Below, piece by piece: positions 23,093-24,358 of a DNA stretch of 64,000 bases. The notes beneath the pieces were generated by a model that saw nothing but the letters and a program-made list of their open reading frames with translations, searched no databases and was not told where the DNA came from. Within the stretch, counting starts at the first letter, position 1. Each line of letters begins with the position of its first letter. Made by a program: the position numbers and the translations under genes. Origin of the DNA: Ornithobacterium rhinotracheale DSM 15997 (GTDB lineage: Bacteria > Bacteroidota > Bacteroidia > Flavobacteriales > Weeksellaceae); assembly GCF_000265465.1 (NCBI RefSeq), contig NC_018016.1, positions 2,036,001-2,100,000 of the forward strand, in the 5' to 3' direction.

Positions 23093-23127
23093 ACACACAC
23101 ACACACACACACACACACACACACACA
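23093..23127. repeat. CA/TG dinucleotide microsatellite, 17.5 units
   Basis: An uninterrupted (AC)n run of 35 bases lies between the truncated traK and the surface-protein gene at 23336. Such long dinucleotide tracts are rare in bacterial genomes and usually mark phase-variable expression. Its centre lies about 225 bases before the ATG at 23336. Confidence 0.95.
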
Positions 23128-23243
23128 AGGGCGACCGTTCGTTAGTGCGCGCGTAATATTTATAAAATCTTTTAAATATGCAAGTTTGCGAGCTTTTTCT
23201 TTTTTAGGGAAAGCGGTAAAATTTAGTATTAAAAATCATAAAA

Positions 23244-23277
23244 ACCTCTCTCGAAATAGCTCGAGAGGGGCTTTTTT
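23244..23277 (+). terminator. Intrinsic terminator or attenuator in the leader of the surface-protein gene
   Basis: CCTCTCTCGA and TCGAGAGGGG pair across a short loop, followed by CTTTTTTA. It reads on the plus strand although no complete plus-strand gene precedes it, so it either closes a small transcript arising near the CA repeat or attenuates transcription into the gene at 23336. Confidence 0.7.
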
Positions 23278-23335
23278 ATGTCTAAATATTAATCAATATC
23301 AATTAACAAGTATAAATTTTTTAAAATTAAATTTT

Positions 23336-24358
23336 ATGAAAAAAAGTATTTTACTTTTATCGGTTTTAGCAATGGGTACAAGTCTTTATGCTCAGCAAGA
23401 CCAAGGAAGAGTAGGGATAAATACCACAAAGCCTAAAGCCACTTTAGATATCAATGTTGCCAGTGCCAATGCTGACACTACAACCAACGAGGGGATTATA
23501 GCCCCCAAATTAACTAAAGAGCGTATAGCCAAGATTGCCGTACCACAAGAGGGAACTTTGGTATACGCTAAAGATGCTATTTATAGTGGCACAAACAGTA
23601 AAGTAGCCAAAATTACAGAGAAAGGCTATTATTTTTATAATGGTACCGAGTGGGTGAAAGTGCGAGGGGCAGATACTAATATTGCAAATATCAATATTTA
23701 CACGGAAGACGGCACCCTTTCTGCCAACCGTACGGTAAACTTAAATAATAAAACCCTTACCTTTAAGGGTACAAATGCCCAAATAAAAGTACCTAACATA
23801 GCAGAAGTTGATGCCCAAAATAATAATACTCAAGATTATAATGTGGTAATAGGTGGAGACGGAACACTAAAAAAAGATGACAGATACTGGTATTTTTGGA
23901 ATGAGGTTAAACCTGATACAGAACGAATAAATAAAACCTCAATGTTTATATTTCAAAATGGAGTAGTAGAACCCTGGTGGAGTGAGGAGAACAAAACCAG
24001 TAATCAAGAGTTATTCATGATACGTTCACCTAATCTTTTTGATTCAAATGGGAAAAGAGTAACAGAAGGTGATAGTAGTGGACAAACTTATGCTGTAATG
24101 GTAACAGCTGATGACTGGTTGTCTGCGATGCATATGTTTTTTATGATACCAGCAATTAGATCAAAGTCGTGTTGGTATGGTGTGGGCGGAATTCTACCAA
24201 TAGGAATGATGTTTAAGAGAAAATATACTGATTGGCATATTCTAACCGAAAATTTGCCGTGGACAGATGGAGGGACAACAGAAGAACGCTACTGGGAGAA
24301 AAAAGATACGAAACCCTTGCGTGCTGACTTAGGATGTCTTCTCTCCATCAGATACTAA
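23336..24358 (+). CDS. Exported surface protein with GINT-type head repeat, possibly phase-variable
   Basis: This 340-residue protein starts with a signal peptide (MKKSILLLSVLAMGTSLYAQ) followed by DQGRVGINTTKPKATLDIN, the opening seen in many flavobacterial surface proteins of unknown role, and KGYYFYNGTEWVKV near residue 100. The C-terminal half carries segments like MVTADDWLSAMHMFF and LGCLLSIRY, and has no sorting signal I recognise. I chose the ATG that opens the signal peptide; an upstream in-frame start at 23186 only adds AT-rich leader containing the terminator. It sits as cargo between two broken tra genes, next to a CA repeat. Confidence 0.7.
   Translation: MKKSILLLSVLAMGTSLYAQQDQGRVGINTTKPKATLDINVASANADTTTNEGIIAPKLTKERIAKIAVPQEGTLVYAKDAIYSGTNSKVAKITEKGYYFYNGTEWVKVRGADTNIANINIYTEDGTLSANRTVNLNNKTLTFKGTNAQIKVPNIAEVDAQNNNTQDYNVVIGGDGTLKKDDRYWYFWNEVKPDTERINKTSMFIFQNGVVEPWWSEENKTSNQELFMIRSPNLFDSNGKRVTEGDSSGQTYAVMVTADDWLSAMHMFFMIPAIRSKSCWYGVGGILPIGMMFKRKYTDWHILTENLPWTDGGTTEERYWEKKDTKPLRADLGCLLSIRY

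Follow-up and report, generated by a model that had tools for sequence, protein, structure and literature searches.

Why should a gene for an exported bacterial protein be preceded by a long and perfect dinucleotide repeat? The question is raised by a (CA)17.5 tract in the genome of Ornithobacterium rhinotracheale DSM 15997, a member of the Weeksellaceae (Bacteroidota). The tract lies in a stretch of 64,000 nucleotides (contig NC_018016.1, positions 2,036,001 to 2,100,000), hereafter called the window, to which all coordinates refer (Table 1). It occupies positions 23093-23127 of the plus strand, upstream of the exported-protein gene. A sequence-only reading had reported the repeat, a plus-strand hairpin behind it and the ATG of the gene, and all three are confirmed, at 23093-23127, 23240-23275 and 23336, respectively. 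It had also proposed phase variation, through altered promoter spacing or through an attenuator. The comparative anatomy described below supports the second route well: the array lies in a leader open reading frame (ORF), and its reading frame determines whether translation stops ahead of the terminator region or continues into or across it. The CA array is probably the variable element of a translation-dependent, phase-variable attenuator.

The CA arrays and their leaders

A first-order model of the window gives an expectation, per 2.4 Mb, of about 1e-4 for (AC)8 tracts and about 1e-16 for 17-unit tracts, and the window tract thus cannot be attributed to chance. The sequence-only reading called it exceptional in a bacterium. 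It is indeed far beyond chance expectation, but it is not alone, because the same genome holds 17 such arrays. A search of the 2.4-Mb genome for (AC)8 returned 196 overlapping matches, which are fully explained by the lengths of 16 arrays, and the 17th array has 8 units. All 17 have a common architecture, range from 8 to 28.5 units and follow a similar short motif, (G)AAAAAGTGTAA or a variant of it. When the window leader was used as a query against its own genome, about 20 related places were found. The leaders comprise type A (n = 13), type B (the window and L039, plus L046, which has no array) and type C (L050 and L053). The array has been lost or nearly lost in four leaders (L046, L056, L147 and L148). 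The module copies are duplicated and show high identity to each other.

Each leader type starts with a promoter element, TAnnTTTG, in most cases preceded by TTG at a distance of 19-20 nt; the leader ATG usually follows 7-12 nt past the element (about 40 nt in type C). A strict sigma-70 scan found no useful promoter, and the assignment was instead made by the Bacteroidota consensus. The predicted promoter is a match to this consensus, TTG-N20-TATCTTTG, located 5′ of the leader ORF, which begins with the ATG at 22999. The paralogue L039 has the same promoter, and the array-less L046 has kept the TATCTTTG element.

The repeat unit, not divisible by three, lies inside the leader ORF, as in attenuators of the streptococcal pil1 type (see below). 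Type A leaders read MKQCVQ...RKSVN(TH)n and the window type reads MKRTENIAPTTNQNFLGKNLLKNLVVSGKSVN(TH)n. The two types differ in sequence, and both run into the array in the same frame. The KSVN/NCVN-THTH entry of the window leader is shared with type A leaders and also found in other species and genera. At all 17 loci of this genome, two of the frames downstream of the array reach a stop within 29 nt, and the third remains open. In the window the two closing frames stop at +18 and +29 after the array, the hairpin is at +112, and the third frame passes through it. Judged by frame, 7 of the 17 loci (L049, L048, L051, L045, L040, L053 and L050) are at present in the open state; the window copy and L039 are in a closed frame.

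The same pattern extends to relatives. Arrays are present in all four species of the genus that were compared: 17 here, 3 in G001, 3 in G002 and 12 in G003 (a match to Weeksellaceae bacterium TAE3-ERU29). One frame, and only one, is open at 35/35 of these loci. Among 296 genomes of the family, this genus and two further genera, g2 and g26, are the only ones in which arrays of such length are common; in g2 and g26 they reach 59.5 units. Of the 16 readable loci in those two genera, 15 show the one-open-frame pattern (50/51 loci in total, with 11 of the 51 in the open state), and across the whole set the pattern occurs in unrelated leader sequences. Nearly all relatives have a TAnnTTTG element ahead of their arrays.

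The open frames are longer than expected from dinucleotide shuffles, with P = 0.0003 for types A, D and F, 0.0017 for type G, 0.004 for type B (the window) and 0.01 for one further leader type; for the short type C leaders P is 0.06-0.08. In the array-less L046, 86 codons are open through the hairpin (P = 0.004). Insertions and deletions past the array are mostly multiples of three, and the leader codon positions vary nearly equally (pN/pS ~0.55). These two observations suggest that the frame matters more than the peptide. They are weaker evidence than the frame pattern itself, since paralogues may exchange sequence. A leader peptide acting as a functional protein is disfavoured by the near-equal variation of codon positions and by leader types that are largely unrelated in sequence.

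Repeat length was compared between paralogues and between species. The L043 and L044 loci share identical flanks (90 bp before the array and 400 bp after it), and their arrays have 20.5 and 24.5 units, respectively. Orthologous type C loci in three species carry 17.5, 11.5 and 16.5 units in flanks that are 95-99% identical.

Between array and gene, an intrinsic terminator is present in 35/35 loci of the genus, with one or two strong terminators in each leader. The window hairpin has a core at 23245-23270 followed by a U-tract, and the full stem has a folding energy of -17.8 kcal/mol (z = -4.5). At most genus loci the open frame ends inside the last terminator, just beyond it or a few nucleotides from it, and several type A copies have their stop codon in the terminator loop. 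The off-frame stops in the four-species set lie at least 40 nt ahead of the first hairpin. Compensatory changes are seen in 5/14 stem pairs in G003 and in 1/13 in type A.

A further feature of the G003 loci (for example, L138, L120 and L140) is a second terminator at about +209 to +268 past the array. Its loop carries GTGTGTGTT, which is complementary to the RNA of the CA array and was seen in G003 loci and in L177 of another genus. Pairing of this loop with the array is conceivable.

Proposed frame-dependent attenuation and its alternatives

In the proposed mechanism, transcription would start just ahead of the leader ORF, which runs into the array. Slippage during replication would add or remove CA units and so set which of three frames the ribosome is in on leaving the array. 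Two of these frames would lead it to a stop within about 30 nt, well ahead of the terminator; the hairpin would then form and the gene would be off. In the third frame it would trail the RNA polymerase as far as the hairpin region or through it and block the hairpin, probably also preventing Rho-dependent polarity, and the putative surface-protein gene and the HU-HIG gene that follows it would be transcribed.

The frame could also act by a different route. Ribosomes at the end of the leader might reload on the gene, and Rho might terminate an untranslated leader, with translational coupling or Rho polarity rather than the intrinsic hairpin deciding the outcome. Often just 4-50 nt lie between the end of the leader ORF and the gene ATG (L053, L140, L119, L175 and L164), and the g2 and g26 loci keep the frame logic although strong terminators were not found there. 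In type A, however, the gene begins about 55-820 nt past the leader stop and the open frames end at the terminator, not at the gene; moreover, the strong hairpins show compensatory changes. We regard coupling or Rho as a possible but doubtful substitute for the hairpin. The window and L039 each have a frame without stops that reaches from the array to the end of the surface gene, as would be the case if the leader were the true N-terminus and slippage switched a long fusion protein. Such a fusion is improbable, given that the surface protein begins with what looks like a signal peptide of its own at 23336, that other leader types end their ORF before the gene, and that L046, itself of type B, ends its leader just past the hairpin.

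Dinucleotide tracts in promoters are known to switch genes in other bacteria, as in the Haemophilus fimbrial promoters, and the array might likewise tune promoter spacing or the length of the mRNA leader, with the frame irrelevant. The change of promoter spacing suggested by the sequence-only reading is unsupported, because the predicted promoter precedes the array by about 100 bp in the window and by 55-110 bp at most other loci. The window array thus begins some 100 bp past the predicted -7 element and not between promoter elements, where a spacer switch would have it; at nearly every locus the array is downstream of the predicted promoter and within the leader ORF. Tuning of this kind would leave the one-open-frame pattern unexplained and is very unlikely. 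Just as little credence can be given to a passive repeat travelling with a duplicated module. The modules are clearly duplicated and their copies are highly identical, but the same logic recurs in largely unrelated leader types and in three genera, long arrays are retained although none would be expected by chance, and their lengths differ between identical flanks.

Several observations weigh against the frame-controlled attenuator. Clear terminators are confined to the genus: in the g2 and g26 loci a strict terminator finder detected almost none, and a relaxed search gave weak hairpins only. The frame logic is thus general, whereas intrinsic termination is evident in the genus alone. The open frame of L043 and L044 is ended by a 1-nt insertion about 43 nt before the last hairpin, L167 (genus g26) has lost its open frame, and three decayed copies (L056, L147 and L148) are fixed in an off frame. 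At the window, the N-terminal fusion stays a candidate because the open frame runs into the surface gene.

In L167, a partial duplication right after the array closes all three leader frames, and this locus is apparently a locked-off copy.

Downstream genes and surroundings

Table 1. Features of the CA-repeat leader and adjoining genes (window coordinates)
Feature	Position	Strand	Basis or remark
Truncated traK, C-terminal 75 residues	22749..22976	-	TIGR03781 profile positions 128-202 of 202
Predicted Bacteroidota-type promoter, TTG-N20-TATCTTTG	22962..22992	+	Consensus in the sequence; putative start site
Leader ORF in its present closed frame, MKRTENIAPTTNQNFLGKNLLKNLVVSGKSVN(TH)n...RATVR	22999..23145	+	Stop 18 nt past the array
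(CA)17.5 array	23093..23127	+	Proposed slippage site; each 2-nt unit moves the leader frame
Segment open in one frame only, running on into the exported-protein gene	23128..23335	+	Reading-frame analysis
Intrinsic terminator, AAAAACCTCTCTCG...CGAGAGGGGCTTTT then U-rich; proposed attenuator	23240..23275	+	Folding; kept in L039 and L046
Exported protein, 340 aa, signal-peptide-like start then ...GRVGINTTKPKATLDI...	23336..24358	+	ORF; N-terminus common to a paralogous family
HU-HIG DNA-binding protein gene	24443..24880	+	PF18291, E 6e-35

Most genes behind the arrays encode exported proteins with a common start, ...GRVGINT..P.ATLDI.... The 340-aa protein of the window has no Pfam match above cut-off (DUF2807 is weak), and no match to the Fib_succ_major domain, which defines FISUMP/FSD proteins, was found in it. 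The product of the paralogue L043 carries this domain.

The order of exported-protein gene and HU-HIG gene is the same in L039, and the HU-HIG gene of the window is probably the second gene of the switched unit. In the type C loci (L050 and L053) the HU-HIG gene comes first behind the switch. HU-HIG-like genes also lie directly behind the switch at L052, L054, L118, L122, L126 and L127. From this position, a nucleoid-type protein may itself be phase-variable. It is a rather speculative idea that some 17 independent attenuators form a combinatorial lottery of surface antigens and regulators, in which slippage ahead of HU-HIG genes could randomise expression more widely, as a phasevarion without a methyltransferase.

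On its other side the module adjoins traK. According to the sequence-only reading, the repeat lies exactly at the broken end of this gene and may have taken part in its rearrangement. Neither point is supported. The DNA common to the window module and L039 starts at about 22957 and the traK homology ends near 22976. The interruption of traK thus falls at the module's promoter end, some 120-135 bp away from the repeat, and it is the whole module that adjoins traK. The same kind of module occurs at 16 other places without traK; this and the distance of the break argue against an origin of the repeat in the traK rearrangement. The region 19430-27866 is a remnant of a CTnDOT-like conjugative element with genes for TraM, truncated TraK, DUF4133 and DUF4134. 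The surface-gene module, together with other genes, sits between traK and the DUF4133/DUF4134 pair and interrupts the element.

Elsewhere in the window, a degenerate array of 8-36-bp TATGTAC-like repeats (33303-33467) lies just upstream of a gene for a ParA-like ATPase (32515-33276, minus strand). It could be a partition site.

Comparison with known systems

In Streptococcus gallolyticus, GCAGA repeats in the ORF of a leader peptide set whether ribosomes disrupt the terminator before the pil1 pilus genes, a mechanism demonstrated experimentally with variants and mutants (Danne et al. 2014, PMC3894217). By analogy, the present system would work as pil1 does. Both pil1/pil3 and the CA loci have a tandem repeat in a leader-peptide ORF, a repeat number that sets the frame, and surface genes downstream; in both, the stop of the short frame lies tens of nucleotides before an intrinsic terminator and that of the long frame lies in or after it. 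The CA loci differ in having a dinucleotide instead of a pentanucleotide, 17 loci per genome instead of the two reported, a Bacteroidota promoter, a short 5′ leader ahead of the ATG, often a second terminator following the first, a long open leader frame (often more than 100 codons) and HU-HIG genes that would also come under the switch.

In O. hominis, 450-bp "noncoding" sequences have been described ahead of FSD genes (PMC10353427), and another paper refers, giving no detail, to a "putative phase variation mechanism" (PMC13183296). Like the leaders studied here, they are repeated, conserved and located before surface genes, in that case of the FISUMP (Fib_succ_major) family. The main texts call them noncoding and do not describe a repeat, a leader ORF or a mechanism. 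In the genome studied here, leaders of this kind appear to be translated attenuators. In the literature searched, which was largely open access, we found no description of this mechanism in Bacteroidota. A genome-wide set of putative attenuators tuned by CA repeats is apparently new for this group, random switching of such kind being known from one streptococcus.

If the proposed mechanism is correct, an odd repeat and a class of "noncoding" leaders become a testable genome-wide switch in animal-associated Weeksellaceae, and the on and off states of adhesin-like genes could be read from assemblies. It would suggest that phase-variable attenuation is widespread, beyond streptococci, and imply that transcription and translation in Bacteroidota are coupled closely enough for attenuation.

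In the pyrBI and trp operons of Escherichia coli, formation of an intrinsic terminator depends on where the ribosome stands with respect to RNA polymerase. The same relation is proposed to govern the terminators described here. The input is different: in E. coli it is the supply of nucleotides or amino acids, whereas in the CA-repeat leaders it would be a heritable and random change of reading frame.
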